The translations under genes were made by a program, and so were the position numbers. Below the pieces are notes generated by a model. That model ran no database searches, was not told the origin of the DNA, and worked only from the letters and a program-made list of their open reading frames with translations. A stretch of DNA of 64,000 bases, from positions 16,840 through 80,839 of the IMG/VR virus record IMGVR_UViG_3300027801_002650; one strand, written 5' to 3'. Position 1 is the stretch's first letter. Each line of letters opens with the position of its first letter. Positions 3 to 22,459 of the stretch are shown one piece after another. The DNA is from a virus.

Positions 3-209
3 CACTTAGCTGAGTCAAACTCATCCTACTGGCACCACTTCAAATACTCAGGGTTGTGTACAATGTGTGCTGGTGCAGTATTTTTGCTAGGAATAGTTCA
101 TACATTTTTTCCGTTTATCGGTGACTGGTGGACAATTAGACTGTCAGAGAAAATATCAAAAATAACATATGAACAATTTGGATATAAGAAACTACAAAAA
201 AGAGACTGA
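3..209 (+). CDS. DUF6356-like small membrane protein, 3' part
   Basis: An open frame enters from the left edge and stops at 207-209, giving 68 residues. It has an HLAE..SSYWHHF opening, then a hydrophobic stretch (AGAVFLLGIVHTFFPFIG) and a short charged tail. This layout (His-x2-Glu, SYxxHF, one hydrophobic hairpin with HxxxPF) is that of the DUF6356 family, small proteins often labelled capsule biosynthesis in proteobacteria. The role is unknown. The C-terminal coding overlaps the next gene by 41 bases. The true start lies outside the window or just at its edge. The family call rests on remembered pattern, not a search; the reading frame itself is fairly secure. Confidence 0.55.
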   Translation, partial: HLAESNSSYWHHFKYSGLCTMCAGAVFLLGIVHTFFPFIGDWWTIRLSEKISKITYEQFGYKKLQKRD

Positions 210-1125
210 GGAAATCATTCGTAAGTGGGAAAGAAAAGAGGATTTCACTTATTATACGTCAGGGTCAACAGGGGTGCCCAAGAAAATAACACATTCCTGG
301 AAATTGATGACAGCTGTTGCTGAGGAGAATTGCCTCTATAATAACTATACAAAGAATGATGTAATAGTAAACGCATGCCTTCCAGCATCCTCAATCGGAT
401 ATCCAGTTCTTTCTGTTTTACCTGCTTTGCTGACAGGATGCAGGTTGCAAACAATTGAGTTTAATCCTTATTCATATCTTGATGTGGTAAAGGAAGCAAC
501 TCATATGTTTATTCTTCCAGCAGTGTATAGAGTTATTAAAAAAACTGATAAATGGAAAAAATTTGATTGTACTGGGAAAATAGTATCTTGTGGTGCTGAC
601 ATTGTACCCGAGGGAATCAAGGAAGACGTTTTATCAAAAGGTGCTAAGAAGTTCCATCATTTATATGGATCGACAGAAGTGCCTCCTGCGATTTCCGACT
701 CAGAAGATGAAAGACAGATCGGCCAAAACCTTTCGCCTTTGATTGATTACTATGTCGAGAATGATGAACTGTTTATCAAATGGAAAAGTCAGGAATCATA
801 TTGGCAATCTGGGGACTTGGTCGATGAGAACATGAGAGTAACAGGCAGAAAGAAAAATATCCTAGCATTGAACTGTTCTCGCATACAACCTGAGACCATT
901 GAGAGATACGTACTGGATAACACCAACGTAAATAAATGCCTGCTTACAACCAAAAAAGACAAGGTATGGATGTATTTTGATGGTGACGAAGAAAATGATG
1001 TTGTTAAAGAAAGGGTACAGGAGTGGTATAAAGATTCTCCTGTCACAGTAAAAAAAGTTGGCAAAATATTAGTCAACAAAATGAATAAACTAATAAGAAC
1101 CGCACAGTACGAAGGAGTTTCATGA
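169..1125 (+). CDS. Minimal ANL-superfamily adenylate-forming enzyme (acyl-CoA synthetase-like)
   Basis: The protein has 318 residues. The ATP-binding P-loop TSGSTGVPKK is at about residues 30-39, the A5 motif LYGSTE at about 165, the GD of A7 at about 217, the hinge TGRKKN at about 226, and a C-terminal NKMNKLIR that fits the A10 motif with its catalytic lysine. ANL enzymes activate a carboxylate with ATP to an acyl-adenylate and usually pass it to a thiol. Most have about 500 residues; this one lacks much of the N-terminal lobe and resembles the short MenE-like type. All core motifs are present, so it is probably active. It starts with ATG and its stop overlaps the next start as ATGA. It could supply an activated acyl or amino acid to the downstream pathway; substrate unknown. 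Confidence 0.85.
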   Translation: MNNLDIRNYKKETEEIIRKWERKEDFTYYTSGSTGVPKKITHSWKLMTAVAEENCLYNNYTKNDVIVNACLPASSIGYPVLSVLPALLTGCRLQTIEFNPYSYLDVVKEATHMFILPAVYRVIKKTDKWKKFDCTGKIVSCGADIVPEGIKEDVLSKGAKKFHHLYGSTEVPPAISDSEDERQIGQNLSPLIDYYVENDELFIKWKSQESYWQSGDLVDENMRVTGRKKNILALNCSRIQPETIERYVLDNTNVNKCLLTTKKDKVWMYFDGDEENDVVKERVQEWYKDSPVTVKKVGKILVNKMNKLIRTAQYEGVS

Positions 1126-7881: not shown

Positions 7882-7883
7882 AT

Positions 7884-8843
7884 ATGATTTATGATGAATG
7901 GAATAATTTAGGCGAGGTCATAGTTGGTACCTCATATGAGGATTGCACTCTTGCTGGACTCGAGCAAATCGTCGATGAGACCAATGAAGATCTGGATACT
8001 CTTGCTAAAATGCTCGAGAATGAATGGTGCACTGTTCACAGACCTAAACAACCTGAGTTTGCTCAAACTAAAGAAGGTGGCGTGGAAATCCATCACCCCA
8101 TCATGCCGAGAGATTCCTTTGGATTTTTCGGGGACAAAATGATACAAACTCAAAACCTTAAAGAATCCAAGCAAGCAGAACTTGGCCTCTACGAACCTAT
8201 TGTGAACTCACATATGTTGAGTCGTAGATATGGATTATGGAGAATGCCGCACCCCTCAATCGATCCTGATCATGGGGTAGATGTATTATGGAGTGCGTCT
8301 AATCTTATGAAATGCGGGTATGATATATTGTACACCCAACCTGTGGAAAGAGATGAAACTAACGGGATTGGAACTCAAGCAGGACTGGACTGGATTGCTA
8401 CCAGACTTGGTACATATAATTTTATTGAAGTGCCGACGGGTGGTCATGTAAACAGCAAACTAACTCTTCTCAAGCCAGGTCTTCTAATGACACACAACGA
8501 AAAGTTTATTCCTAAAGAACTCAGAAAGTGGGATAAGATAATCGTTGAACAAATCAAAAAACCAAGATTCTCTGATACGTACACTCAAACATATTTGAAG
8601 AACTTTAAAAATTGGAAAGATTGGACTGGAAAACGGGACTCGATTCTAGAAATAAACTGCCTTGTTATCCGTCCTGATAAGATTATCACTACTGCCCAGA
8701 GTAAAGATAATATTAAGAAAATGGAAGACAAAGGAATTGAAGTGGTTATATGGGATCATAGACACAGATACTTTTGGGATGGTGGCGCACATGATTGCAC
8801 ACAAGATACTGCTCGCGGAGGCGAAAGAAAGAAATGGCGTTAA
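7884..8843 (+). CDS. Glycine-amidinotransferase-like enzyme (guanidino-modifying superfamily)
   Basis: The protein has 319 residues. It opens with EWNNLGEVIVGT, as amidinotransferases do, then PRDSFGFFGD (PRD at 75-77), GGHVNSKLTLLKPG with H188, and a C-terminal GGAHDCTQDTARGG with C305. These correspond to the Asp/His/Cys active site of the superfamily that includes glycine amidinotransferase (amidino transfer from arginine), arginine deiminase and DDAH. The HVN and GGxHxCT details look closest to the amidinotransferase branch. It has an AAGG sequence upstream of its ATG as a ribosome site. It suggests the pathway product carries a guanidino group or consumes arginine. Transferase versus hydrolase activity cannot be told here. 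Confidence 0.82.
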   Translation: MIYDEWNNLGEVIVGTSYEDCTLAGLEQIVDETNEDLDTLAKMLENEWCTVHRPKQPEFAQTKEGGVEIHHPIMPRDSFGFFGDKMIQTQNLKESKQAELGLYEPIVNSHMLSRRYGLWRMPHPSIDPDHGVDVLWSASNLMKCGYDILYTQPVERDETNGIGTQAGLDWIATRLGTYNFIEVPTGGHVNSKLTLLKPGLLMTHNEKFIPKELRKWDKIIVEQIKKPRFSDTYTQTYLKNFKNWKDWTGKRDSILEINCLVIRPDKIITTAQSKDNIKKMEDKGIEVVIWDHRHRYFWDGGAHDCTQDTARGGERKKWR

Positions 8844-9559
8844 CTGTCGATATTTATGGCGATAGTTTCTCCTGTCCCTGCTGCAAAACTGACGAAAAAG
8901 ACACCTACCTCGATATACTATCCGATCAATTTTTATTGGACAATACATCAAAGCATGGTGTTGGTGCACAATGGTGCGTTGAGAAGTTTATGGCAAGACA
9001 GTCTCATGGTGATTTTCTTTTATTCTGTCTGCCAGATGCACAAAGACTGTGGTTACAATATTTACCGGACTACATGGCTAGCCAGTCAAACAAAATATAT
9101 GCCATGATGAAGGCAAATAACATGGACTTTCCTGAAGAACTGGAAGAGTTGGCAGTTGAAGAAGCACCTAAAATATTTAAGGACTATGAAGGATACTACA
9201 ACACAGGCATGCACAGAATTTTTGAGGTCTTGGCTTCGAGTTTTATTTTGTCAAAGGCGAAACATTACAAGAAGGTTTTGATATGGCCATCGTCTGGCTC
9301 AGGTTTTCCTTTTCGTAACTATAACCACGCATTAGAAATACCTTCTAATGTACTCATGGTTCCGAAGTCCTTGACATTCATATCCCAATTCGAAATAAAT
9401 AATAAAACAAATCAGCCACATTTTGATTTTGATACTAGAAGCAATCACTTGTCACATGCAAATCACATTGTCCTTGCTAAGCAGATATCACAGTTTTTCT
9501 TGACAAACAAACACCCTGACATTATGGAATTTAAAAGATATATCTATGGAATGCAATAG
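8834..9559 (+). CDS. SGNH/GDSL-hydrolase-like protein
   Basis: The ATG at 8834 overlaps the previous stop by 10 bases and gives 241 residues; upstream in-frame codons would read through the end of the amidinotransferase gene and are less likely. The N-terminus is LTVDIYGDSFS, block I of the SGNH fold with the nucleophilic Ser in GDSF. Near the C-terminus SNHLSHANHIVLAKQI fits block V, where a His is catalytic. Such proteins are esterases, lipases or carbohydrate O-acyl transfer/deacylation enzymes. A CPCC cluster at about 14-17 just after block I is unusual. The middle is not recognised. Confidence 0.55.
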   Translation: MALTVDIYGDSFSCPCCKTDEKDTYLDILSDQFLLDNTSKHGVGAQWCVEKFMARQSHGDFLLFCLPDAQRLWLQYLPDYMASQSNKIYAMMKANNMDFPEELEELAVEEAPKIFKDYEGYYNTGMHRIFEVLASSFILSKAKHYKKVLIWPSSGSGFPFRNYNHALEIPSNVLMVPKSLTFISQFEINNKTNQPHFDFDTRSNHLSHANHIVLAKQISQFFLTNKHPDIMEFKRYIYGMQ

Positions 9560-10583
9560 ACTAAAGGGATACTTAGATCTTAGTCAAGCAGATGGCAGAG
9601 TCACACCATGCTGTTTGTTTGATATAGCTACAGGATGGAACTCAAACATTTATACAGGTGTCGATTTTTCTGAATGGTCAAATCCTGTCAAAAAAGGTTG
9701 CTGGCCTTGTGTAGAAAATGAATCTAATGGCCATGAGTCAATGCGACAGACTGCCGTTGCAGAAGGCATACAAATTGCCCTTGACTTTACGTGTAACTTC
9801 ATGTGCCGTATTTGTCGACCTGCCTTGTCATCAAAATGGGATTCGGTCGACGAGGACTGGACTCGGTTTGATAAAGACCATTTTTACAAGGATCCAAACA
9901 GAAAACGATTCGCTAATGAGCAAGAACGATTTCTAAACCTTGTAGATCTCTCAGAAATGAAAGAAGTCCGAATCGTGGGCGGAGAACCTTTCCTTTCAAA
10001 AAAATTAGTACCATTTCTTAAAAGACTGCCCAAGTCTGCCAAAGTTGATATAAATACTAATGCTAGCATTTTCCCAGATGATGCAACAATCAAAGAACTG
10101 GAAAAGTTTGATTCTGTTCAAATAGACGCAAGCATTGATGCCGTCGGGGAGCTAGCCGAGTGTATTAGGTTTGGTACTATCTGGTCTGAGGTAGAGAAAA
10201 ATATTAACAGACACATATCACTTTGGGATACTTACATTTATACTACTATCTCAGTTTTGAATGTGAACAATCTAAATGAAGTATATGACTTTGCTGGTGG
10301 AGATGAATACCACGGAGGCAAAAGCAGAATGAATCCCTTGATTACACCAACCTTCCTACGACTTGAACAGATACCACAAAACATAAGAAAATCATGGGGC
10401 ATAAAATCACTGAGAGGCATGGGTGATTTTAACAATATTATTTGTAATGAAACTGAAGTAAAACCTGAGCATAAGAAATGTATAGACTTTATACAAACTT
10501 GCGATAAACATCAGGGAATACTTTTTCAAAATGTAAATAAAGAAATGTGGGAAATATTATGGACATTAGCATACCCAAAGTAA
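9546..10583 (+). CDS. Radical-SAM protein with N-terminal twitch-like domain (rSAM 5)
   Basis: The 345-residue protein has a shorter twitch-like region: C3, C22/C23 after DGRVTP, and C52/C55 in KKGCWPC with NGHESMRQ following. The radical-SAM motif is at C83, C87 and C90 and is followed by RPALSSKW, then VGGEPF. The SIDAVGELAECIRFGTIW stretch is the family's conserved C-terminal segment. The cysteine spacing to the cluster motif is the same as in the gene at 13904. It lies between an SGNH-like and a QueC-like gene. Confidence 0.9.
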   Translation: MECNRLKGYLDLSQADGRVTPCCLFDIATGWNSNIYTGVDFSEWSNPVKKGCWPCVENESNGHESMRQTAVAEGIQIALDFTCNFMCRICRPALSSKWDSVDEDWTRFDKDHFYKDPNRKRFANEQERFLNLVDLSEMKEVRIVGGEPFLSKKLVPFLKRLPKSAKVDINTNASIFPDDATIKELEKFDSVQIDASIDAVGELAECIRFGTIWSEVEKNINRHISLWDTYIYTTISVLNVNNLNEVYDFAGGDEYHGGKSRMNPLITPTFLRLEQIPQNIRKSWGIKSLRGMGDFNNIICNETEVKPEHKKCIDFIQTCDKHQGILFQNVNKEMWEILWTLAYPK

Positions 10584-11359
10584 CAACCCGTTATACTGAT
10601 AAAATAATGCAGGAGTTGCATGATATAAGATTTTTCGATGATTCCGATGAGATGAAGAAACGTCAATCGACACTCAAAATCAAAGAAGAGTTTGTTGAAA
10701 TTCCTGTAAAAACAATCGGCATGTGGATGTCAGGTGGTGCCGACAGTTCCCTCTGTGCCTGGATGATAAACAAAAAGATTCGCGATGAAAATCTTGATAT
10801 AAAATTCCAACCAATGTCTGTTCGTAGAGGAAGACCATCAAATCCTATCTATGCTGGCAACGTTATCGATTTTATAGAGGGTGACCTAAATATTACAATG
10901 AATGATCACATCATTTATTATCCAGACATTGCAGATGAGTACCAAAGAGAAATAAAGGAGTTTAGAGACAGAGACGTTGAGAACTTCAACTCTGGATTAA
11001 TCGAGATTATGTATTCAGGAATAACCTCAAATCCCCCTGATAATGATATGAGTATTTTTGTAGACAAAAAATGTGAACCTACGAGAAACGAGTCGGCTGA
11101 GAAACCTCTAGAATCAGTTAGTGGACTAGCTCATTATATAAATCCCTTTTTTCAAATAAACAAAAAAGATATTAAAACTCTTTATGATGATTTCAAATTG
11201 ACCTACACATTATTTCCTATCACCAGAAGTTGCGAAGGTGATCCAGAAGATACTGGAAATCTTTCATATCATTGCGGAAAATGCTGGTGGTGTGAAGAAA
11301 GAATGTGGGCATTTGGATTTTTAGATAATCCTCCTCCCCAATATATTTATGATAATTGA
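10559..11359 (+). CDS. QueC-like PP-loop ATPase
   Basis: From the ATG at 10559 the protein has 266 residues; a GTG at 10547 is a weaker start. The PP-loop SGGADS at 58-63 binds ATP. The C-terminus has C225 and then CGKCWWCEER with C239, C242, C245 and R248, the four-cysteine zinc site of QueC, the 7-cyano-7-deazaguanine synthase. QueC turns a carboxylate into an amide and then a nitrile using ATP and ammonia. The region between differs from standard QueC, and no QueD, QueE or FolE was seen here, so this may be a relative that activates another carboxylate. Its presence makes a nucleotide or nitrile/amide step in the pathway possible. Confidence 0.75.
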   Translation: MDISIPKVTTRYTDKIMQELHDIRFFDDSDEMKKRQSTLKIKEEFVEIPVKTIGMWMSGGADSSLCAWMINKKIRDENLDIKFQPMSVRRGRPSNPIYAGNVIDFIEGDLNITMNDHIIYYPDIADEYQREIKEFRDRDVENFNSGLIEIMYSGITSNPPDNDMSIFVDKKCEPTRNESAEKPLESVSGLAHYINPFFQINKKDIKTLYDDFKLTYTLFPITRSCEGDPEDTGNLSYHCGKCWWCEERMWAFGFLDNPPPQYIYDN

Positions 11360-12773
11360 TAAAGATCCTACCAATCTACCCTCAAAAACTTTCTGTGCTT
11401 TACCTTGGATGCACGTATCCACACGACCGAATGGCCACATGCGTGTTTGCTGTACAGCAAACGCATCAGGTGTTCAGAATAAAGACTCAACAAAAAAGAC
11501 TCTCTCAGAGGCAGGTGTACTCAGAAGAGATGATGGTCTTCCAGCAAATCTAGCAACGACAAGTTTGCTTGATGCTTGGAACAACGAATACATGAGGTCA
11601 GTTCGCAAAATGATGCTTAATGGTGAAAAACCTCCCTCATGCTTGAAATGCTTTAAGGAAGAAGATGCAGGACACAGAAGCAAACGACAATGGGAAACTG
11701 CCAAGTGGGTAGGAGAACTCGGACTCGACGATATCATCGGAGAAACAAACGAGGATGGCTCCGTACCTCCAAGAGTCAGGTACATTGATTTACGTTTGGG
11801 CAGTAAGTGTCAGTTGGCTTGTGTTATGTGTTCTCCTCATGATTCTTCTAAATGGGTAAAGGAATATAAAGAAATCTACCCTGATCTAAAGAACGAACGA
11901 CTACGCGACTCACAACTCTGGGAAAAAGACTCCGGAAAGTTGGCATGGTCAGGTGGCTCGTATGCTTGGCACAAATCAAATCCTACATTCTGGGATGAGT
12001 TTTGGACTCAGGTTCCTACGCTGAAACAACTGTACTGGGCAGGTGGCGAATCATTGATTATGGATGAGCACTACATGGTGCTTGAGAAGATCATTGAAAT
12101 GGGGCATGCTAAAGATATAGAACTACGATACAACTCAAATGGTCTCGAATGGGAACCACACTTGTTTGATTTATGGAAAGAATTTAGAAATGTAATTTTT
12201 CATTTCAGCATTGACTGTCATGAGGAGAAAAACCATTTCATTCGATACCCATCTAATTGGGAACAAGTCGTGACCCAAATGGAAGCACTTGATGATTACC
12301 CGCACGGCAACTTGAGACTTACTACAGCCACGACAATCATAGCTCTCAATTTGTTTTATCTTCCCGATTTTATCAAATGGAAACTGAGCAAACAATGGAA
12401 GCTGTTAAACAAGTTTCCTGCTGGAGCAGGCATGATAGATTTACATCTTGCCTACTGGCCACCTCAATTAAACTGCAAGGTACTGCCAAAGTGGTTCAAG
12501 ATGGAGGTAACCGAAAAGTTTAATGAGTTCTATCCTTGGCTTGAAGAAAACTGGCAAAAATGCAATGGCGTAGAAAATCTGTCATTTACAGAGTGGCGTG
12601 AACTGCCATACGGCATAAAAAGACTTGAGGGACTTGTTTCATTTATGAACTCGGAGGACTGGTCTGAACGATTGCCCGAAACTGCAGAGTGGTGTTATAC
12701 CATAGCAAAAAGAAGAAAACTTGATTTTTTGAAAATCTTTCCTGACCTCGAATGGCTACAATGGTATGCTTAA
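11349..12773 (+). CDS. Radical-SAM protein with N-terminal twitch-like domain, long form (rSAM 6)
   Basis: At 474 residues this is the longest radical-SAM protein here. The N-terminal domain has FCALPWMHVSTRPNG (C16), C34/C35, and C98/C101 in MLNGEKPPSCLKC with a SKRQ end. The radical-SAM motif is at C154, C158 and C161, followed by SPHDSSKW and AGGESL. HFSIDCHEEKNHFIRYPSNW is the conserved later segment. The extra length lies mostly in the twitch-to-core linker and the C-terminus. This subtype (ALPWxHxxxxPNG) is the best-known form of the family in phages. It overlaps the QueC-like gene by 11 bases. Confidence 0.92.
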   Translation: MIIDKDPTNLPSKTFCALPWMHVSTRPNGHMRVCCTANASGVQNKDSTKKTLSEAGVLRRDDGLPANLATTSLLDAWNNEYMRSVRKMMLNGEKPPSCLKCFKEEDAGHRSKRQWETAKWVGELGLDDIIGETNEDGSVPPRVRYIDLRLGSKCQLACVMCSPHDSSKWVKEYKEIYPDLKNERLRDSQLWEKDSGKLAWSGGSYAWHKSNPTFWDEFWTQVPTLKQLYWAGGESLIMDEHYMVLEKIIEMGHAKDIELRYNSNGLEWEPHLFDLWKEFRNVIFHFSIDCHEEKNHFIRYPSNWEQVVTQMEALDDYPHGNLRLTTATTIIALNLFYLPDFIKWKLSKQWKLLNKFPAGAGMIDLHLAYWPPQLNCKVLPKWFKMEVTEKFNEFYPWLEENWQKCNGVENLSFTEWRELPYGIKRLEGLVSFMNSEDWSERLPETAEWCYTIAKRRKLDFLKIFPDLEWLQWYA

Positions 12774-13914
12774 TATAGAAAATATAGAAGACAAATCAAA
12801 TCGTTATCAGATCATATGGGACCTCGGACGCAGGTGCTCATATGCCTGCTCATATTGCCCTCCTCACAGAAACAATAAGTGGTCTACATTTATTGACTAT
12901 GAAAAACTATGCGACACCGTAGACAAGGTTGCTCAATATGCGTTACTGTATGATCAGTTTCGTAAAGTGCCTGCTATGAAAAAACTTAGTTTTACTGGCG
13001 GTGAGCCAACTGTTCATCCGGACTTTTTTAAATTCCTAAGATACGTAAAGACTACTTACCCCTTTTTCAGTAGAGGTCTGACTACAAATGGGTGGTTTTC
13101 GAATAGTGTTTTAGATAAAGTGATGTCCCTGACAACTGGTGGTACTCTGTCATATCATTGTGAATCAACAGATAAACAGAAAAAACAAGTAATAAGCAAT
13201 GCTATCGTATTACGAGAAAAGTACAAGGTAAACGTAATGTTTCACAAAGATTACTTTTGGGAATGCGTAGATGTTTGCGAGACAATGGAGAAAAATGGTG
13301 TAGACTACGTACCACGAATCATAGGAGATGATCATCCCGATGATAAAAAGTCCATAGAGTTAGGTTATACACAGGTGTACGAAGAAGATCAAATGAAATG
13401 GTTTAGAGATTACTGGAAACAGAAAGGACAAAATGTTGCAGAATCAGGAAACACCCAAAAAGGATTGGGACGTCCCTGTTGCGGAGGCAGATGCTTTAAG
13501 GCAGACGGCAAGGATTCTTACTTTCTCCCTGATACAAACTTTCAGGGTTGGAGCTGTATGGTTAACTGGTATTTTCTTTTCATAAACTCAGAGGCAGATC
13601 GTGTATGGACTCATCAAACTTGTGGCGTAAATCTTGATGGAAAAGTTGCTCCTCTTGGAAAGATATCCGAGTTTGACGATATACTTGACAAACTCGGCGA
13701 TTCATTGTATACTAGAAGGGTGCCAATGATTACGTGTCCGAAAACATTTTGTGGATGTGGTATGTGCATCACAAAATCAAAAGACAATGTGAAAGAGATG
13801 TTTGACAGGCATACTGTCGATGAGTTGGACTTTGAGAAAGTATCACAAAAGAAAAGCAACTGGTTCACAGACGAAACAACGAAAAGGGTTTTTGAGAAGT
13901 TAGATGCTGTGTAA
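12766..13914 (+). CDS. Radical-SAM protein with C-terminal GWxC cysteine module (rSAM 7)
   Basis: The 382-residue protein has the radical-SAM motif CSYACSYC at C24, C28 and C31, then FTGGEPT at 76-82. After the core comes RPCCGGRC, then a cysteine module: FQGWSC at about 259-264, TCG near 285, a GK.SEF stretch, and ITCPKTFCGCGMC at about 321-333. This is a SPASM-like auxiliary-cluster domain. The same module is found C-terminally in the gene at 21350 and N-terminally in the gene at 19423. Substrate unknown. Confidence 0.9.
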   Translation: MLNIENIEDKSNRYQIIWDLGRRCSYACSYCPPHRNNKWSTFIDYEKLCDTVDKVAQYALLYDQFRKVPAMKKLSFTGGEPTVHPDFFKFLRYVKTTYPFFSRGLTTNGWFSNSVLDKVMSLTTGGTLSYHCESTDKQKKQVISNAIVLREKYKVNVMFHKDYFWECVDVCETMEKNGVDYVPRIIGDDHPDDKKSIELGYTQVYEEDQMKWFRDYWKQKGQNVAESGNTQKGLGRPCCGGRCFKADGKDSYFLPDTNFQGWSCMVNWYFLFINSEADRVWTHQTCGVNLDGKVAPLGKISEFDDILDKLGDSLYTRRVPMITCPKTFCGCGMCITKSKDNVKEMFDRHTVDELDFEKVSQKKSNWFTDETTKRVFEKLDAV

Positions 13915-14857
13915 AATGCCTTTCACCCATTCTTTTATAGATGGGGAAACTATGAAACCTTGCTGTATGTTTGAAGGCGAGGGAGACGTACGGGAACAGT
14001 TTCTAGCAGGCATAAAACCTGAAGGATGCAAACCTTGTTTCGACAAAGAGGAACGTGGAGGAACCAGTTCGAGACAGTATTACAATCAACGATATGACTT
14101 TTTGCCTCTGGACAAAGTCAGAACCTTTGACCTGAGAATCGATGATGTATGTAATCTAAAGTGTGTTATGTGTGGACCTGATCAGTCTACCAAATGGAGA
14201 GAAGACATTGAGATATTCGATGAGTTTGTTGGTAGACCACTGTGGAACAGGAAAATACCACTGCCAGATTTATCTGATGCATTAGAAATAAGCATCCTTG
14301 GTGGAGAACCATTCTATATGAGAACTGCTGAGAACATATTGAAAAAGCAGTCCCGAGACACCCGCATTATTTTGAACACAAATGCTTGCATCGATGCAGA
14401 CAACAAACTGCTGGGCATATTAAAAGAGTTTGATGTTGTTGAAATCGTAATATCGATTGACGGGTACAAGCAAGTAAACGATTATATTCGTTTCCCATCA
14501 GAGTGGGATAAGTTTGAGTCTGGTATAGATATTATTTTTTCCCTCGACAATATTGAATATAAACCATTTAACACAACAGTCAGTTGCCTAAACCTGCCAG
14601 ACCTTGATAATATCAAAAACTACACAAAGCAATACTCAGACTACAAACACTACATAAATTATCTTACCGACCCAGACTTTTTGAGTATAAATGCTTTGCC
14701 ACCGAAAGTCATAGAATACTGTGATGTTGACGTAGACTATGAGTTCGACAAAAAGTTGAATCAAAAGATGAGAGCATACTTGAGTAAGTTAGACAAGAAA
14801 AGAAATACAAATAGCAAAAGGACATTACCATGGTGCTGGATCGACCATTCAGAATAG
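13904..14857 (+). CDS. Radical-SAM protein with N-terminal twitch-like domain (rSAM 8)
   Basis: The 317-residue protein begins MLCKMPF (C3), with DGETMKPCC (C20/C21), and C42/C45 in FLAGIKPEGCKPC followed by GGTSSRQ. The radical-SAM motif is at C83, C87 and C90, then GPDQSTKW and LGGEPF. ISIDGYKQVNDYIRFPSEW is the conserved later segment. It is compact, with little sequence past the core. It overlaps the following SPASM enzyme by 28 bases, the second twitch/SPASM pair. Confidence 0.91.
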   Translation: MLCKMPFTHSFIDGETMKPCCMFEGEGDVREQFLAGIKPEGCKPCFDKEERGGTSSRQYYNQRYDFLPLDKVRTFDLRIDDVCNLKCVMCGPDQSTKWREDIEIFDEFVGRPLWNRKIPLPDLSDALEISILGGEPFYMRTAENILKKQSRDTRIILNTNACIDADNKLLGILKEFDVVEIVISIDGYKQVNDYIRFPSEWDKFESGIDIIFSLDNIEYKPFNTTVSCLNLPDLDNIKNYTKQYSDYKHYINYLTDPDFLSINALPPKVIEYCDVDVDYEFDKKLNQKMRAYLSKLDKKRNTNSKRTLPWCWIDHSE

Positions 14858-15795
14858 AGTTTGAGATAAGTTCTCTATGTAATGCTCTCTGCTCAGGTTG
14901 TCAACGAACAATGATGGACAACAGGGGAAAGTACTACTACAAAGGAAATATTACCATAGACCAAATGACAGATTGGTTTGATGAGGTTGACTTGACTAAT
15001 GCCAAAATTAAACTGTGTGGTGTGTTAGGTGACCCGATTGTCAACCCTGACTGCTATGAAATATGTTCCTATTTGATGCTAGAGAAGAAAGTCAAAAGCA
15101 TAGAAATATCTACCAATGGTGGTATGAGATCATCAAAGTTTTGGACTCAGTTAGGCGAGTTATCAGCGATGAGCGGCAATCGTTTATATGTACATTGGTC
15201 AATAGACGGAGTTACCAAAAATGATTACAGAGAAAACGTAAACATCGACAAGGTCTGGGAAAACTTTCATACTTACTATAATGCTGGTGGTAAATGCATT
15301 TGGCAGTATATACATTTTGATTACAACGCAGACGAAATCCCTCTGGCAAAACAAAAAGCAAAAGAGTTAGGTGTTGAGTTAAAGATACGTGTCAGTTGGA
15401 GAAATACTGCTGATGCAGCAAAGTTTAAATCAAGCGAAGCACTAAAGATCGACGAAGACATATACGAGACAGTTGAGACTCGAGCACGCACGGGTGACTA
15501 TGAGGCAGCAAATATTGTTTGTCGACATCAGTTAGAAAATGAGCTGTTCGTTACATCAGAAGGCAGAATATGGCCTTGCTGTCATTTACAAGATGAACAG
15601 GTTGCAGGCAAAACTGACATACTAACAAAAGTTGGTTTAAAAAATGATCTACAGCAGTCAAAATTTTACGACATTATTCAGTCTGAGTGGTATGAAAAAA
15701 CACTGGCCGAGTCGTGGGAAAAATCACACCCTCTTCACCTACCCAGGTGCTATTTATCCTGTGGAGATTTTGCGAAAAGAAAAGTTATTAAATGA
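14830..15795 (+). CDS. Radical-SAM/SPASM protein (rSAM 9)
   Basis: The 321-residue protein has the cluster motif CNALCSGC at C17, C21 and C24, CGVLGDPIVNP in the GGE position, STNGG and HWSIDGVTKNDYR. The SPASM region has a lone C before a 15-residue spacer, SEGRIWPCCHL at about 243-252, and a final CYLSC. It is closely related to rSAM 4, 11 and 13. Its last codons overlap the next ATG as ATGA, so it is probably coupled to the PLP-enzyme gene. Confidence 0.9.
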   Translation: MVLDRPFRIEFEISSLCNALCSGCQRTMMDNRGKYYYKGNITIDQMTDWFDEVDLTNAKIKLCGVLGDPIVNPDCYEICSYLMLEKKVKSIEISTNGGMRSSKFWTQLGELSAMSGNRLYVHWSIDGVTKNDYRENVNIDKVWENFHTYYNAGGKCIWQYIHFDYNADEIPLAKQKAKELGVELKIRVSWRNTADAAKFKSSEALKIDEDIYETVETRARTGDYEAANIVCRHQLENELFVTSEGRIWPCCHLQDEQVAGKTDILTKVGLKNDLQQSKFYDIIQSEWYEKTLAESWEKSHPLHLPRCYLSCGDFAKRKVIK

Positions 15796-16625
15796 TAGAT
15801 AGTCCCGAAAGAGAATACACATTAGACTGGTTGCAGTATGAAAGACAGCAACCAATGTACGATGAGAGCATCAATGATTTTTATGCTCGTATTTTTAAGG
15901 AAACTCCAGTTCACGCAAAAACTATTGACGTAGATTTTTTACATGCCTTTGACGAATGGTTGAGAAATCATCAGTTCAGCAGTTTTACAGGAATGGATGC
16001 ATTCCCTGTCAGGCATGTCATACAGGGTGTCACACATTACATCGACGACCTGTATCAGACATATGGTTCTTTGCAGATATTCAAAAATGATTATAAATAC
16101 CACTGGCGACTGAACAATGAAATAGAGTATGCTACTATCGATACCCTGGATAAAAGGCACCTACTTATATCAATGCCGTTTCCTTACTACGGTGATATAC
16201 ATCCTGGCATGTACACAATACTCGATGCGTGTTATGAAAAGGGAATCCCTGTGCATGTTGATGCTGCTTGGATTAGTTGCATACGCAATATTGATTTCAA
16301 TTTTGACCACCCTGCTATTCAGACTTTTGCTATCAGTTTAAGTAAAGGAGGCATAGGTGGTTGTCGAATCGGTGTGAGATATGCACGATGGACAACTGAA
16401 GGACCTATCACATTAATGAATAAGTTTAACATGAATCAACAACCACTGATGTGGATTGGAACACGTTTCATGAAGGAGTTTGGTCCAGAGTATTTTTGGA
16501 AAAAATATGAAAACAAATATAATCAAGTTCTTAAGGATTTCAAACTGCAACCATCAAAAGCAATACACCTTGCTATGAGCAACGGTAAACCTGTTGGTGT
16601 TCGATCACTGCTGAGGGCATTATGA
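15792..16625 (+). CDS. Short PLP-dependent fold-type-I enzyme (aminotransferase-like)
   Basis: The protein has 277 residues. IPVHVDAAW at 152-160 supplies D157, which fits the Asp that pairs with the pyridine nitrogen of PLP. FAISLSKGGIGGCRIG at 179-194 supplies K185 as the likely Schiff-base lysine and R192 as the phosphate-binding arginine. These three in this order and spacing are the signature of aspartate-aminotransferase-like enzymes. The usual length is about 400 residues, so much of the N-terminal arm and small domain is missing. Both ends overlap neighbours as ATGA. A transamination or lyase step is likely; the substrate is unknown. Confidence 0.72.
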   Translation: MIDSPEREYTLDWLQYERQQPMYDESINDFYARIFKETPVHAKTIDVDFLHAFDEWLRNHQFSSFTGMDAFPVRHVIQGVTHYIDDLYQTYGSLQIFKNDYKYHWRLNNEIEYATIDTLDKRHLLISMPFPYYGDIHPGMYTILDACYEKGIPVHVDAAWISCIRNIDFNFDHPAIQTFAISLSKGGIGGCRIGVRYARWTTEGPITLMNKFNMNQQPLMWIGTRFMKEFGPEYFWKKYENKYNQVLKDFKLQPSKAIHLAMSNGKPVGVRSLLRAL

Positions 16626-17833
16626 GTTGTATTCTACCTTGGATCAATTTTGGTACAAATATTTACGGGCGACCGAGAGTCTGTGGTTACTCTAACATAA
16701 ATGCACAATGGAAGCATATGTTTGAGAAAAGAGGTTTACCATGGCCACCTACTAAAATTGAAGACACCCCAAAGGAAATCCTTGAAAGTGACTTTGCCAA
16801 AGAGTTCCAGACTTGGAATGGTAAGTTAGAAAAGCATGGTGTAAAAGAGCAGTGGAACAACATTTATTTTAGAGAGATTCGTGAAACATTTTTGAATGGT
16901 GAGTGGCCAGCAAACTGTGGCAGATGTAAGCATGTTGAAGAGTTGGGTGGCAAGTCAAAACGCATAGACGAAAATGATATGTGGCATGACGAAAATCTGA
17001 TCGTAGAAACAGAATATCCAAAGCACATCGATGTAAGAACTGGTACAGTCTGCAACTTTAAATGTATTCATTGTAGTCCAAATGTTAGCTCGAAATGGGT
17101 TGAGGACAAGGAAGTCGCCATAAAATATGGAACCGAATACGTAGAAAATGATAATACTTGGATAGCAAAAGATAATGACTTTTGGAATCAACTTGACATT
17201 TCTCAAATAAAAAGGTATAATTTCTTAGGTGGTGAATCGTTTTATAATAAAAGACATAACGAGTTTATCAAAAAACTGAATGAAAGCGAGTATGCGAATG
17301 AAATAGAAATCGCTTACGTCACCAATGGTTCGTTCAGATTTGAGAATATGGAAAACTTCAAAAAGGTAAGACTGAGATTGTCTGTTGACTGTGTAGAAAC
17401 AGCAGGGGAATATTTTCGTTATGGATTAAAATGGGATGATTGGTGTGAAAACATTAAAAAATTTCCGTCAAACTTTGACACATCCTTTCAATGGACTTGC
17501 AGTAATGTAAGCATGTTCTACTTAGTAGATACCTACAAGTTATTGCGCAAACAGTTTCCTGACATTAGATTTTTGTTTGAGAATCATGTAACAGAACCCT
17601 ACTATATGTCAGCACAAAATCTGCCCAGTAGCATCAAAGAAAAAATCAGTGACGAAATTGATTTTGAAATAGATCCTTTTTACGTTAATTATATGTTTAA
17701 AAAAGATGGATGGTCAGAAAAAGGTGAAACTTTTATTAACTATCTAAACGATTTAGATAAAGCAAGAAAAACCAATTGGAGAAAAAGTCTGTGTGGTCTA
17801 GAGAAAGCATTGAGTGGATTGACGTTGAGCTAA
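16622..17833 (+). CDS. Radical-SAM protein with N-terminal twitch-like domain (rSAM 10)
   Basis: The 403-residue protein begins MSCILPWINFG (C3), with C21, and C99/C102 in FLNGEWPANCGRC followed by GGKSKR. The radical-SAM motif is at C144, C148 and C151, then SPNVSSKW and LGGESF. LSVDCVETAGEYFRYGLKW is the conserved later segment. It starts at an ATGA overlap with the PLP-enzyme gene and overlaps the following SPASM gene by 43 bases, a third twitch/SPASM pair. Confidence 0.91.
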   Translation: MSCILPWINFGTNIYGRPRVCGYSNINAQWKHMFEKRGLPWPPTKIEDTPKEILESDFAKEFQTWNGKLEKHGVKEQWNNIYFREIRETFLNGEWPANCGRCKHVEELGGKSKRIDENDMWHDENLIVETEYPKHIDVRTGTVCNFKCIHCSPNVSSKWVEDKEVAIKYGTEYVENDNTWIAKDNDFWNQLDISQIKRYNFLGGESFYNKRHNEFIKKLNESEYANEIEIAYVTNGSFRFENMENFKKVRLRLSVDCVETAGEYFRYGLKWDDWCENIKKFPSNFDTSFQWTCSNVSMFYLVDTYKLLRKQFPDIRFLFENHVTEPYYMSAQNLPSSIKEKISDEIDFEIDPFYVNYMFKKDGWSEKGETFINYLNDLDKARKTNWRKSLCGLEKALSGLTLS

Positions 17834-18714
17834 CGTCATTTTGTAATATAGACTGCCCAGGTTGTTTCCGGCAAGTCAAAAGGGATAAGGTTGATCATCT
17901 TCTAAACAAAAGCATGATTACTTTAGATCAGATTAAAACATGGCTGACATACAAGAACTTTCCTAACGCAAAACTGGTCAACTTTTGTGGATCGATTGAC
18001 GAACCTACCTTACATCCTGATATGTTGGCAATCTTAGACCACCTTGACGGCATAGACATTAACATATCATCGAATGGCTCAACTAAGACAGAAAAGTTTT
18101 GGGGCGAGTTAGGAAAAAGAAAAATATCTGTTTTCTTTGGTCTTGACGGCATAGACCAGGAGTCACTTGAAAAATACAGGATAGGTGCAAACTTCAAAAA
18201 AGTGCAGGCAAATTGGAGAGCATTCATTAAGGCAGGTGGCAAAGCAACGTGGCAGTTTATAGCATTTGATCACAATGAGCACTTGATGGATGACGCCAAA
18301 CGCATGGCAAAAAAAGAAGGATTTACTGACTTCAGATTGATTTATTCTCATAGAAATGAGAACCAAGAGTCTAAGAAACTACAAAGAAAAGAAGAACAGA
18401 CCATTGTATGTAAATATGGGGAGCAAAATAGAATCTTTATTAGTCACACAGGTGTGATGCTCCCTTGTTGCTTTTTGAACTCAGAGTTCCTACAGTCTTA
18501 TGCTACAAAAGAATACCATACTGACTTTCAACAACTGTTCAAAAATACAGGTGACGTGCTGAACAACAGTTTGAAATATGCTGAGCCAGACGAAATCATT
18601 GACGGGGAATTGTGGAAAGAAATCGTTTCGTCGTGGGATCACAAACCAATATCAAGGTGTGAAACTACGTGCAAGCAAGCAAAGCAAGATGTATTTCTTG
18701 GAGAGACATTATGA
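17791..18714 (+). CDS. Radical-SAM/SPASM protein (rSAM 11)
   Basis: A GTG at 17791 is chosen because GGAG lies nine bases upstream and because the resulting VWSRESIEWIDVEL aligns with the start of rSAM 4; a TTG at 17776 would add five residues. The 307-residue protein has CNIDCPGC at C18, C22 and C25, CGSIDEPTLHP in the GGE position, SSNGS and FFGLDGIDQESLEKYR. The SPASM part has a lone Cys, SHTGVMLPCCFL at about 218-228 and a final CETTC. It is the third of four close SPASM paralogs. Confidence 0.89.
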   Translation: MWSRESIEWIDVELTSFCNIDCPGCFRQVKRDKVDHLLNKSMITLDQIKTWLTYKNFPNAKLVNFCGSIDEPTLHPDMLAILDHLDGIDINISSNGSTKTEKFWGELGKRKISVFFGLDGIDQESLEKYRIGANFKKVQANWRAFIKAGGKATWQFIAFDHNEHLMDDAKRMAKKEGFTDFRLIYSHRNENQESKKLQRKEEQTIVCKYGEQNRIFISHTGVMLPCCFLNSEFLQSYATKEYHTDFQQLFKNTGDVLNNSLKYAEPDEIIDGELWKEIVSSWDHKPISRCETTCKQAKQDVFLGETL

Positions 18715-19442
18715 AGATAAGTGATTATCGTGAATATGCTAATCGTCTATCTGCATTACGAGAGAAATTGGCCGACATTGAAAAGGTCTTTTACAATGTT
18801 GAAAAAGAACAACGGGCGACGAAGTATGCTCAGGTAGGCAGGTGGATAGAGGGCAATCTGTCACAAGATTATTCACAGTCCTGGGAAGACTCAATGTCTG
18901 CTCAACAGTACGAATCTAAAAAATGGATGGTCGATGAAATAGCAAATCTTAAACCAAAGTTTGAATACTCCGAACCCTGCCACATTGAGGTTGTTGGTTC
19001 TTGGTTCGGGTGGCCATTGATGGAATACATTGATCATGCCTTTCCCAATATAAAACAGGTAGACCTGTATGATAAGGATGAACTGTGCCATCCTGTCATG
19101 GCTCAATACAAAAATCACTTTGCCCCTAAATATTCAGTCCACCAATTTGGTGATTGGTTTGAAAGAACTGATAAAAGAAGAAGGCAGGTGATCATTAATA
19201 CTTCTGGTGAACACATGTCTAACATTTCTGCGAACAAAGAAATGTTCAAAGGAAATCCTCTTATTATCATAATGTCAAATGATTATTTTGATGGAGATGG
19301 CCACACTCACTGTGTCCCTGACGTAGAGGAACTTGTGCGTCAACAAAATCTCGGGGAAACCTATTACACTGGTACACGATCAATGCAGACTTATAACAGA
19401 TTCATGGTGATTGGGAGAATGCATGCTGAAAGTACTGACTGA
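18711..19442 (+). CDS. Class I SAM-dependent methyltransferase-fold protein
   Basis: The ATG at 18711 forms an ATGA overlap and gives 243 residues. HIEVVGSWFGW at about 91-101 fits motif I of the class I fold, and VDLYDKDE about 17 residues later supplies the acidic end of strand 2. Later VIINTSGEHMSN, then IIIMSNDYF and RFMVIGR, fit strands 4 to 7 of a family of small bacterial methyltransferases. The helical first 80 residues may be a cap. It would methylate a pathway intermediate; the target is unknown. The gene at 23102 resembles its C-terminal half. Confidence 0.6.
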   Translation: MKISDYREYANRLSALREKLADIEKVFYNVEKEQRATKYAQVGRWIEGNLSQDYSQSWEDSMSAQQYESKKWMVDEIANLKPKFEYSEPCHIEVVGSWFGWPLMEYIDHAFPNIKQVDLYDKDELCHPVMAQYKNHFAPKYSVHQFGDWFERTDKRRRQVIINTSGEHMSNISANKEMFKGNPLIIIMSNDYFDGDGHTHCVPDVEELVRQQNLGETYYTGTRSMQTYNRFMVIGRMHAESTD

Positions 19443-20325
19443 CAAGGGACTGAAGACAGCAACAGTCAGTCAATTAAAACAGAATACAAACTTTAAGGGA
19501 TGGGTTTGCCAACCAAATCAATACGTTATTGACGTAGAGAAATGGACAGTTAGGCAAACAGTTTGCGGACACCCTGACGAACAATCTATTGGAGAGTTTG
19601 TCCCTATCAAAGAAACCATCTGCCCCAACGACAACTGTTTTTGTGGCAATGATATAGAAATGAGAAAAGGAAAGACACACGATTTTCTTAAACTAATCAA
19701 ACATGCCCCCGATAAGATTGACCCGTACAGAGGTGAGAAGATACTCGCCATCGATAATAAAAACAGAGTCAACGTCAACTTTTATACTGAAAAGAAATGC
19801 AATTATAGTTGCTCATACTGTGAACCTGAGAATCATTCATCTACTAAATCCATTGACATCGAAAAATACAAAGAGGCATGGAATACTGTAAATCCAAAAA
19901 ATGTCTCTACCATAAATATATCTGGTGGCGAGCCAACACTCAACAAAAAATATATTGACTTTGTAAAATGGTTGAGCGAACACAATCCTTACGCACACAT
20001 ATCGACATCTACAAATGGATCTAAGTCTGCCGATTATCTTAGGCATCTTAATACATACTCTCACCTAGCGATAAGCATACATTTTGAATTTATTACAGAA
20101 TCCTACATAAAAAAGTTACATAGGTTTCTTTCACACAGAAACGAAAACAAAAAGTCAGTAAGATTAAAATGCATGTTGCATCCAGAAAAAATCCAACAAG
20201 TAAAAAGTTTTATGGACGGATTCAAGGGATATCCGGACATCCAAGTTTCGGTCACTCCTTTGTGGACACCTGGTACAAAAGATATTATGGAATATGAGGA
20301 AGAAGTATGGAATTTAGTGACATAA
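19423..20325 (+). CDS. Radical-SAM protein with N-terminal GWxC cysteine module (rSAM 12)
   Basis: From the ATG at 19423, preceded by GGGAG, the protein has 300 residues; a TTG at 19411 would add four. The N-terminal module has FKGWVC (C29), TVCG (C48) and ICPNDNCFCG (C67, C72, C74). The radical-SAM motif follows at C126, C130 and C133, then SGGEPT. The protein ends soon after the core. The module aligns with the C-terminal one in rSAM 7 (GWxC, N-x-Y, TxCG, CPxxxCxCG), so the domain order is swapped. It overlaps the methyltransferase gene by 20 bases and the next SPASM gene by 19. Confidence 0.88.
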   Translation: MLKVLTDKGLKTATVSQLKQNTNFKGWVCQPNQYVIDVEKWTVRQTVCGHPDEQSIGEFVPIKETICPNDNCFCGNDIEMRKGKTHDFLKLIKHAPDKIDPYRGEKILAIDNKNRVNVNFYTEKKCNYSCSYCEPENHSSTKSIDIEKYKEAWNTVNPKNVSTINISGGEPTLNKKYIDFVKWLSEHNPYAHISTSTNGSKSADYLRHLNTYSHLAISIHFEFITESYIKKLHRFLSHRNENKKSVRLKCMLHPEKIQQVKSFMDGFKGYPDIQVSVTPLWTPGTKDIMEYEEEVWNLVT

Positions 20326-21359
20326 GGCAAGTACATTTTGAACCATCACAGGGATGCAATGCTTCTTGTCCTATGTGTGACAGGAATCAAAATGGTGGGG
20401 CAGTTAATCATCACCTTACAAATGCTACGTGGACTGCTGAAGAGTTCATGAACAAGATAGACTTTGAGTTTATCAAGAAAACCAACTTCTGGTATTTTTG
20501 TGGGAACCACGGGGATCCACATATGTGTGAGGACCTACCCAGAATTTGTGCGTGGATGAAACAGAAAAATCCAGGGATTCGTTTACTTACCACAACAAAT
20601 GGTGGAGCACGTGATGTGTCTTGGTGGGAAGAACTTGCACAATACTCAGAGGTCAACTTCTCCGTCGACGGACTAGAGGACACAAATCATCTCTATCGTC
20701 AAGGTGTGAGGTGGCAAAGGGTTGAGGAAAATATGGTAGCATTTTGTGAGGCAGGTGGTTTCGCGAAATGGACATTCCTTGTCTTTCGTCACAACGAGCA
20801 TCAGGTTGAGGATGCTAGAAGATGGGCTACGGCACTTGGCGTAAAAGATTTTATTGTTAAAAAGTCAGGCAGGTATATCAACACTGCTACCCTGACTGAG
20901 AAGGATGGCCACCAAGCAGTCAACAAAAAGGGTGAAACGAAACAATACCTCGAGCAACCTTTGAATCCCAAATATCAGAACAAGGCACTGCCCCAGTACA
21001 AGGTGCTAGAGAAAAAGTATGGAACTTTTGATAAATACCTTGAGGTGTGTAAAATAGACTGTAAAGCAGAAGACAAAAAAGAAATCTATATCTCAGCAGA
21101 GGGATACACTTTTCCTTGTTGCTGGTTGGGTGGGCAACCTCTTAAGTGGTGGCGTAAACAAAAATCTGGTGATGTACATGATATGATTGGTGACTACGAC
21201 CTGATAAACATAAAGAAGACACCCCTGAAAGAGATCATAACGGGTGGGTTCTTTAACCGAGTACAGGAATCTTGGACTGGTGACAGACTCAAGACCTGTG
21301 CGTTAAAGTGTAACTCCGGACAAGATAACTACGATCCTTTTTCAGCACAATGGCAGTAA
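20307..21359 (+). CDS. Radical-SAM/SPASM protein (rSAM 13)
   Basis: The 350-residue protein has CNASCPMC at C17, C21 and C24, CGNHGDPHMCED in the GGE position, TTNGG and FSVDGLEDTNHLYRQGVRW, which is nearly identical to the same stretch of rSAM 4. It has an extra charged insert before the SPASM region. The SPASM part has EVCKIDC, SAEGYTFPCCWL at about 263-272, and CALKC. Substrate unknown. It is flanked by two GWxC-module radical-SAM genes. Confidence 0.9.
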   Translation: MEFSDIRQVHFEPSQGCNASCPMCDRNQNGGAVNHHLTNATWTAEEFMNKIDFEFIKKTNFWYFCGNHGDPHMCEDLPRICAWMKQKNPGIRLLTTTNGGARDVSWWEELAQYSEVNFSVDGLEDTNHLYRQGVRWQRVEENMVAFCEAGGFAKWTFLVFRHNEHQVEDARRWATALGVKDFIVKKSGRYINTATLTEKDGHQAVNKKGETKQYLEQPLNPKYQNKALPQYKVLEKKYGTFDKYLEVCKIDCKAEDKKEIYISAEGYTFPCCWLGGQPLKWWRKQKSGDVHDMIGDYDLINIKKTPLKEIITGGFFNRVQESWTGDRLKTCALKCNSGQDNYDPFSAQWQ

Positions 21360-22459
21360 AATTCTCACAAACTGACTTTACCAAAATCCCTTGGGACGAT
21401 ATTGAGATGGTGGGGCAATGGACGATGCTCCATCGCGACCTATTCAATGTGTCGTGGTTGCTTGGTAGATACTGTAACTACTCCTGCAGTTATTGCTGGC
21501 CGTATGCTTCAACCAAAAAGAAAGATTGGAGATCGGAAGACCTCGTACTGCTTACTATTGAAGAAATCAAACGACAGGCAAGAGAACGAGGATTTAACTC
21601 GTTCCACTTCTCATTCTCTGGTGGAGAACCCACCGTAGTTCCTACTCTTATTCCTCTCCTAGACAACCTCCGTGAAGATATTGGAAACTGTAACTGGCTG
21701 TCTACACACCTTACCTCTAACATTTCACGGAAAATGAAATGGTGGGAGGAATATTGCCAACTAACTAAGGACTTTCATCGAGTATCAATCACAGCATCCT
21801 ACCATAAAGAGCATATCAATACTCCTGAAAAGAGAGCAGACTTTGCTGATAAACTTGAATATCTTCAGTCACAGGATGTGCAGGTAACGGTCAACTCAGT
21901 AATGATACCCGAGAGATTTGATCACCTCTGGGAAGACGCCAACTACTTCCATGAGAGGAAAATCAACGTGACGTTGAAACCTCAGTCAGATCCCACAGCA
22001 AGTTTTGTGGTTGATGGATACACTGATGAGATGATGAATATACTTCACAATGGTTTACCTCAGCAAGATTTCACTGAAAGAAAAAGGCAGGTTGTCAGAC
22101 CTACGTCAAAGTTCCCTCGCATGAAAGCGATTGACGGCCAACATTATCAGATTGAAATGCAGGACAAGGACGGGAAAACATGGCGACTTGACCAGGCAGA
22201 GAGGTTCAACTCCTTTGGTTTTAATAAGTTCAAAGGTTGGGACTGCTCATCAGGGTATCGTAGCATAATCATACGGGAACCTGACGGGTCGATCAAAAGA
22301 AGTTATAGCTGCTCGGACGAACCTTTGGGTTATATTAACAAAGGATTTAGATTATTTGATTCTCCTATGCCTTGCATCACTGATTCGTGTGTATCGAGTG
22401 CTGACTCTAAAATACCAAAACGGAAACCCTCGTCAAACGCAGATCTATGGTCCAGCTGA
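21350..22459 (+). CDS. Radical-SAM protein with C-terminal GWxC cysteine module (rSAM 14)
   Basis: The 369-residue protein has CNYSCSYC at C42, C46 and C49 in GRYCNYSCSYCWP, then FSGGEPT. After the core, FKGWDC at about 294-299, REPDGSIKRSYSC, and PCITDSC make the auxiliary cysteine module, with a degenerate final CxCG. The core resembles rSAM 7 (LGRxCxYxCSYC). It is the last radical-SAM gene of the run and overlaps the first glycosyltransferase-like gene by 13 bases. Confidence 0.9.
   Translation: MAVKFSQTDFTKIPWDDIEMVGQWTMLHRDLFNVSWLLGRYCNYSCSYCWPYASTKKKDWRSEDLVLLTIEEIKRQARERGFNSFHFSFSGGEPTVVPTLIPLLDNLREDIGNCNWLSTHLTSNISRKMKWWEEYCQLTKDFHRVSITASYHKEHINTPEKRADFADKLEYLQSQDVQVTVNSVMIPERFDHLWEDANYFHERKINVTLKPQSDPTASFVVDGYTDEMMNILHNGLPQQDFTERKRQVVRPTSKFPRMKAIDGQHYQIEMQDKDGKTWRLDQAERFNSFGFNKFKGWDCSSGYRSIIIREPDGSIKRSYSCSDEPLGYINKGFRLFDSPMPCITDSCVSSADSKIPKRKPSSNADLWSS

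Follow-up and report, generated by a model that had tools for sequence, protein, structure and literature searches.

Why does one radical S-adenosylmethionine (SAM) protein of a viral gene cluster carry at its N-terminus a cysteine module that two of its neighbours carry at their C-termini? The question arises in a 64,000-base stretch of DNA, bases 16840-80839 of the 80,839-base virus record IMGVR_UViG_3300027801_002650, which we call the window and whose genes and proteins we name after their first bases. Between approximately 1.8 and 22.5 kb it holds 14 radical-SAM genes: in seven of the proteins an auxiliary domain stands at the N-terminus and in four a SPASM-type module at the C-terminus; two (12766 and 21350) consist of a core followed by a module with the signature F-x-G-W-x-C (the GWxC module); and one, 19423, has such a module in front of its core. 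As judged from sequence comparisons, 19423 is very probably a naturally occurring circular permutant of radical-SAM enzymes that carry a predicted twitch-type auxiliary [4Fe-4S] domain, and its order is conserved among related uncultured viruses.

The halves of 19423 in swapped order

The original prediction held that F-x-G-W-x-C and further cysteines follow the core in 12766 and 21350 and precede it in 19423, and this is indeed what the proteins contain: the module landmarks read FQGWSC...HQTCG...CPKTFCGCG in 12766, FKGWDC...SYSC...CITDSCVSS in 21350 and FKGWVC...TVCG...CPNDNCFCG in 19423. It also named GWxC, N-x-Y, TxCG and CPxxxCxCG as landmarks common to the three, and here only GWxC stands. 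Namely, N-x-Y occurs as NWY in 12766 and as NQY in 19423 and is absent from 21350; TxCG is found as TVCG in 19423, has only TCG as its counterpart in 12766 and is again absent from 21350; and CPxxxCxCG is present in 12766 and 19423, whereas 21350 ends in CITDSC, with no CxC. Common to all three proteins are F-x-G-W-x-C, then a second cysteine, then C-x4-C. The observation is thus real and partly confirmed, its landmarks needing correction. Among 36 aligned collinear relatives, C299, C321, C342 and C347 (21350 numbering) are invariant together with the three core cysteines, while in the permuted family C29, C48, C67, C72 and C74 are invariant in all five aligned members, as are C126, C130 and C133 of the radical-SAM motif CxxxCxxC.

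The swapped order is also seen with profiles of collinear proteins. A first profile, un0, was built from eight such proteins (313 positions, no window protein); it matched 12766 and 21350 collinearly from end to end, and gave two matches, in swapped order, to each of five members of the 19423 family. The second, un1, has 312 positions and was built from 38 collinear sequences; 12766 and 21350 are among them, permuted proteins are not. It was run against 4204 distinct open reading frames (ORFs) from 124 loci, with the duplicates of the window (L002-L007) and identical ORFs left out. A total of 323 ORFs were matched, 85 of them core then module, 10 module then core, 225 in the core only and three as module fragments. 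In particular, module positions 236-310 of un1 fall on residues 21-86 of the 19423 ORF (29.3 bits) and core positions 13-200 on residues 115-300 (104.4 bits), where residues are counted from the ORF start at 19411. A swapped two-piece match was obtained for every one of the 10 distinct 19423-family ORFs and for none of the other 313 matching ORFs, and un0 singled out the same 10. In other words, the core-first order of the GWxC family does not apply to the permuted ORFs, all 10 of which have the module first.

Is the module of 19423 a foreign one? By their cores, the window's 14 radical-SAM proteins sort into three classes, and each class goes with a module class of its own. The 19423 core scores 104.2 bits with the GWxC core model (coreU), as against 47 and 61 bits with the other two core classes, and its module scores 35.1 bits with the GWxC module model (modU), while the other two module models give no match. 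Since core and module both belong best to the GWxC family, 19423 is a member of one family with its halves exchanged. Consequently, where domain swapping or circular permutation had been offered as alternatives, permutation is supported and the import of a foreign domain is not. The collinear GWxC proteins of viruses and Vibrionaceae (12766, 21350 and those of L088, L127 and L130-L140) have the same core and module classes as 19423, with the core first.

Trees, tandem genes and the origin of the order

In a tree of cores, the permuted proteins form one clade (support 100/100) on a long stem among the collinear families; in the module tree, the support of the permuted clade is 90/88. When the core tree is rooted with cores of the window's other two classes, the N-terminal-twitch (N-twi, NF033640) and SPASM proteins, four long-branch Campylobacter-phage rows having been removed, the clade is recovered at 100/98 and joins the GWxC families at 94/86. 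The collinear order is best taken as the older one, because it is widespread, including Vibrio and Photobacterium, and is usual in solved twitch enzymes.

Tandem collinear copies are probably the source of the permuted order. By this route, the module of one gene would have been fused to the core of the next head-to-tail gene, the outer halves being lost afterwards. Collinear GWxC genes running in the same direction make up 14 adjacent pairs in nine loci, and up to three overlapping core-GWxC genes stand in a row on the same strand of viral contigs L113, L116, L117, L123, L126 and L127, with L117 carrying three collinear GWxC genes consecutively. A parallel to 19423 is seen in Campylobacter phage CP21, where the tandem radical-SAM genes CP21_027 and CP21_028 share one frame and are separated by a stop. 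There, the upstream module and downstream core are collinear with 19423, although, unlike in 19423, they belong to two genes: a tblastn alignment with 19423 as query leads from the upstream gene's module into the downstream gene's core, and a profile of the permuted proteins crosses the junction over query positions 17-294 with one internal TAA (E 1e-16). The cysteine-to-cysteine spacing at this junction is 50 codons, compared with 52-53 residues in the permuted proteins.

That said, several points weigh against a permutation of this kind. No core-module-core intermediate was present among the 4204 ORFs. In the other 12 of the 13 tandem pairs measured, the spacing is approximately 30-36 codons and the next core is out of frame, and a frame change breaks up the core of the upstream CP21 gene. 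Because the intermediate was not found and the CP21 upstream core is broken, the tandem route is put forward as a proposal only. What is more, neither the core tree, the module tree nor the rooted core tree gives the permuted clade a supported sister gene, and, given its long stem and the unsettled fork, the parent gene and the direction of the change rest on parsimony. Finally, in the structural model of 19423 discussed below, residues 68-86, the cluster-binding end of the module, have a predicted local distance difference test (pLDDT) score below 50.

One could also argue that the module and the core came from two already diverged GWxC paralogues that were joined by recombination, which would lead to the same end product by domain shuffling within the family and not by permutation in the strict sense. 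Neighbouring tandem genes are often of different families, as in L117, L127 and L113, the module tree supports a single origin only moderately and the two halves have no sister in common, all of which would fit such a fusion. Yet each half forms one clade and neither is closer to any particular other family, and we regard a hybrid origin as rather unlikely.

Kinship of the modules and comparison with known systems

The permutation reading requires that the N-terminal module of 19423 be homologous with the C-terminal ones. The model modU, made from C-terminal modules only, scores 31.0-38.7 bits on the first 100 residues of all 10 permuted ORFs, whereas the best of 5000 composition-preserving shuffles reached 14.4 bits and the best N-terminus of another radical-SAM protein 13.5 bits (315 ORFs listed, of which only those longer than 200 residues were scored). 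The profile comparison proposed originally, that of the 12766 module with the 19423 module, is weak when taken alone (57.6% probability over 14 columns) and becomes strong once intermediate families are included. Namely, comparisons of small families gave 57.6%, 67.0% and 70.7% over 14, 45 and 10 columns for three families, with module-core controls at or below 1.2%, while with deeper profiles hhalign aligned permuted and C-terminal modules over 64 columns at 97.5% and E 5.8e-12. The linking C-terminal modules are those of L088:9656-10558, L030:998-2050, L038:1150-2082, L034:2985-3953 and Campylobacter-phage proteins. The same comparison of the permuted module with the two other module classes and with the core gave at most 0.5%.

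Structure prediction, also proposed at the outset, agrees with this. The AlphaFold2 model of 19423 was based on 31 alignment rows, those of the module coming from permuted proteins only and those of the core also from relatives, and has a mean pLDDT of 80.9 and a predicted template modelling score (pTM) of 0.75; block means in the core are mostly above 90, falling to 78 at the C-terminal end. The model of 21350 (36 rows) reached a pLDDT of 91.1 and a pTM of 0.90. In the 19423 module, strands 2-6 and 9-13 and helix 15-21 are predicted before the motif and strands 33-37 and 42-46 after it, and in the 21350 module strands 268-272 and 277-280 and helix 283-288 before and strands 305-309 and 314-316 after, so that both models share one order: two strands, a helix, FxGWxC and two more strands.

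Structural alignments of the 21350 model extend through its module in BlsE (7vob, Z 17.1, residues 29..369), SkfB (6efn, Z 15.7, 25..365), MoaA and anSME; for this reason, the GWxC module appears to be of the twitch/SPASM kind. The idea that it is an auxiliary-cluster domain is thereby upheld, by full-length fold matches of a predicted model in the collinear case and by homology in that of 19423, and in both it should be read as a prediction. Fold searches with the 19423 model (Foldseek and VIA-align) returned radical-SAM core matches that hardly cover the module and are thus uninformative on its fold, and alignments from a viral structure library were mostly of core length.

A twitch domain consists of a beta-hairpin and a subsequent helix, with four cysteines for a single auxiliary cluster. 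In the twitch enzymes BlsE (7vob), SkfB (6efn), BtrN (4m7t) and MoaA (1tv7), a partial-barrel core is followed by the auxiliary-cluster domain, as in 21350; in 19423, unlike in these, the domain comes before the core. The module of 19423 bears the signature F-x-G-W-x-C.

Could the N-terminal cysteines of 19423 instead belong to a convergent metal-binding or substrate-recognition (RRE-like) domain that merely resembles the GWxC module? A different N-terminal domain is frequent in peptide-modifying radical-SAM enzymes, SkfB being the example in the excerpt of PMC6231123, and the weak modelling of residues 68-86 would be in keeping with this idea. Against it stand the 64-column profile match, the conservation of F, G, W, three cysteines and a terminal lysine in both sets of modules and the common order of secondary-structure elements in the two models, so that we consider convergence very unlikely.

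Equally, 19423 might be a divergent member of NF033640 (N_Twi_rSAM), in which case nothing would have been moved. Like 19423, NF033640 proteins carry the auxiliary-cluster domain before the core, several of them are encoded in the same cluster, where seven genes have N-terminal auxiliary domains, and the NF033640 model does match 19423 (E 8.6e-9). This match is limited, nevertheless, to core residues 110-206 and to 35 bits, against a cut-off of 170. What is more, an N-twi module model made from 63 modules matches none of the 10 permuted modules, hhalign gives 0.2% for the pair, and the GWxC core model gives the permuted cores 81-109 bits, the N-twi core model 44-51 bits. The two groups therefore differ in core class and in module, with no profile link between their N-terminal modules, and membership of 19423 in NF033640 is highly improbable.

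Is NF033640 itself a second case of changed domain order? With 63 non-redundant N-twi proteins and 36 C-terminal SPASM proteins, hhalign related the two sets of modules at 91.8% (E 7.2e-7). The N-twi module model matches 22 of the 36 SPASM proteins, always in the C-terminal half and with E <0.01 in five of the 22; its best score there is 34.4 bits, compared with 9.9 bits in 3000 shuffles. Conversely, when the domain threshold is set loosely, a SPASM core-module profile gives swapped-order matches in 42 of the 63 N-twi proteins, the module part being weak (1.8-13 bits, in three of seven) in those of the window. Since the N-twi and SPASM modules are homologous by profile, a second domain-order change in the cluster is likely. 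We would go further only tentatively, and with somewhat less than even confidence: there may have been two separate permutations in one phage cluster, one of GWxC and one of SPASM/N-twi, using the same docking site, with tandem arrays repeatedly generating permutants by out-of-register fusion.

As to the reality of the gene, 12 other viral contigs match 19423 from residue 1 to residues 281-300, or to 223 where the contig ends, with an identity of 43-76% in the four relatives compared. Five pairwise comparisons gave a nonsynonymous rate dN of 0.07-0.15 for the module and 0.10-0.21 for the core, while the synonymous rate dS is at least 0.88 and at least 0.75, respectively, and is saturated for the pair of the window and contig L001; both parts of the permuted proteins are thus under purifying selection. 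The start of 19423 is sound, because a Shine-Dalgarno-like GGGAGAA lies directly upstream of its ATG. Although the halves stand in the order that one would predict from adjacent tandem genes, a frame error, mis-assembly or gene-call error that merged pieces of two genes can be practically dismissed, given that the order is conserved in those 12 contigs, that the linker is constant, that dN lies far under dS in both halves and that the start has a ribosome-binding site.

Possible function, distribution and gene neighbourhood

The protein 19423 has two conserved sets of cysteines on a radical-SAM core, in a family of predicted twitch structure. It is presumably catalytically active, would hold an auxiliary cluster and may serve alongside 21350 in one phage pathway. 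As a radical-SAM enzyme, it would keep two clusters at work: that of CxxxCxxC would cleave SAM and start hydrogen abstraction, and the module cluster, lying near the active site, could act as an electron relay or substrate anchor by analogy with BtrN, BlsE, SkfB and MoaA. In SkfB, the C-terminal domain folds back to dock next to strand 1, where the core begins (PMC6231123). A permutation is expected to be tolerated for this reason, as a module fused before core strand 1 could, by the same analogy, reach the site used by the C-terminal module.

The cluster as a whole spans 169-24662 and also includes genes for an AMP-binding ligase (169-1125) and a QueC-like ATP pyrophosphatase (10562-11359). 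From their reading, we take 7884-8843 to be amidinotransferase-like and 15792-16625 to be like a pyridoxal-phosphate enzyme; neither has a Pfam match. Campylobacter phage clusters (L079, L080) combine similar radical-SAM genes with those of an amidinotransferase, an aminotransferase and nucleotide-sugar transferases. Collinear GWxC proteins in Vibrio and Photobacterium (L130-L140) score 116.5-210.1 bits with un1 in all 11 loci, taking the best match per locus. On a Vibrio alginolyticus plasmid, one of these genes (L130:4980-5963) is followed by genes for an HlyD-type protein and a peptidase-domain ATP-binding cassette exporter, which hints at peptide modification and export.

Permuted relatives were also sought elsewhere. 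A tblastn search of 50,697 phage records matched 20, and both domains were covered in only two, both CP21 and both across two genes. Among 24 chosen, non-random virus records, 11 had a module-plus-core match and the other 13 the core only, save for the CP21 junction. No relative of the permuted protein was among 73 stretches retrieved from genome contigs with two peptide patterns, and a set of 398 genomes from a single bacterial phylum, selected around a Vibrio genome, gave one match, in the core only. As a separate observation on CP21, the upstream tandem gene (L008:7304-8219, CP21_028) has its core start, 7304-7462, in one frame and its remainder, 7452-8219, in another.

T4-like marine and Campylobacter phages have already been described as carrying many radical-SAM genes (PMC5332604, PMC2853527), and auxiliary domains at the N-terminus are known too, NF033640 being a named NCBIfam subfamily. 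In the open-licence PMC literature, partly judged by title, we found no report of a circularly permuted radical-SAM enzyme, nor the wording N-terminal twitch or N-terminal SPASM. A conserved circular permutant of the GWxC family, with a likely tandem route, was thus not found in the literature and sequence searches made. The GWxC module of 19423 is marked by neither Pfam nor NCBIfam, and it is overlooked by annotation pipelines in which a SPASM/twitch domain is expected at the C-terminus. More generally, natural circular permutants reveal the contacts that a multi-domain enzyme needs: if the module is indeed always kept while its position in the chain is irrelevant, the spatial place of the auxiliary cluster must be essential. 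Tandem gene arrays, in turn, offer a view of a possible route to permutation.

Table 1. Coordinates in the window of 19423, its parts and the radical-SAM genes compared with it.
Feature	Position	Strand	Basis or remark
Putative permuted radical-SAM/twitch protein, 300 residues, module then core	19423..20325	+	ORF; Shine-Dalgarno-like site at 19413-19419; un1 matches in swapped order
N-terminal GWxC (predicted twitch-type) module of 19423, residues 1-82; C29, C48, C67, C72, C74	19423..19668	+	un1 match; invariant cysteines; AlphaFold2 strands and helix
Linker of 19423	19669..19752	+	last module cysteine to first core cysteine 52-53 residues in 7/7 members measured
Radical-SAM core of 19423; C126, C130, C133	19753..20310	+	un1 match; PF04055, E 6.5e-12; pLDDT
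Collinear radical-SAM/GWxC protein	12766..13914	+	core ~12778-13404, module ~13477-13782
Collinear radical-SAM/GWxC protein	21350..22459	+	core ~21431-22048, module ~22148-22423
Radical-SAM protein with C-terminal SPASM-type module	20307..21359	+	of the loci compared, only the window and L001 have it between 19423 and 21350
NF033640 (N_Twi_rSAM) radical-SAM protein, comparison case	11349..12773	+	NF033640 392 bits against cut-off 170; PF13186 at residues 16-101, before the core

The seven radical-SAM proteins whose auxiliary domain is N-terminal are encoded at 1883-2962, 2944-4092, 5865-6941, 9546-10583, 11349-12773, 13904-14857 and 16622-17833. Six of them exceed the NF033640 cut-off, 9546 lying slightly below it at 160.6 bits, and the N-terminal domain of 11349, the comparison case in Table 1, is different from the GWxC module of 19423.

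In 9 of the 12 loci compared, a homologue of 21350 directly adjoins the permuted gene; the two are separated by one SPASM-type gene in the window and in L001, and L111 stops within the permuted gene. Directly upstream of the permuted gene, and overlapping it, the window and L001 have a gene for a 257-residue protein (18669-19442 in the window) with no above-cut-off Pfam match, and homologues of this protein are encoded downstream of the permuted gene in L104, L106, L108 and L109.

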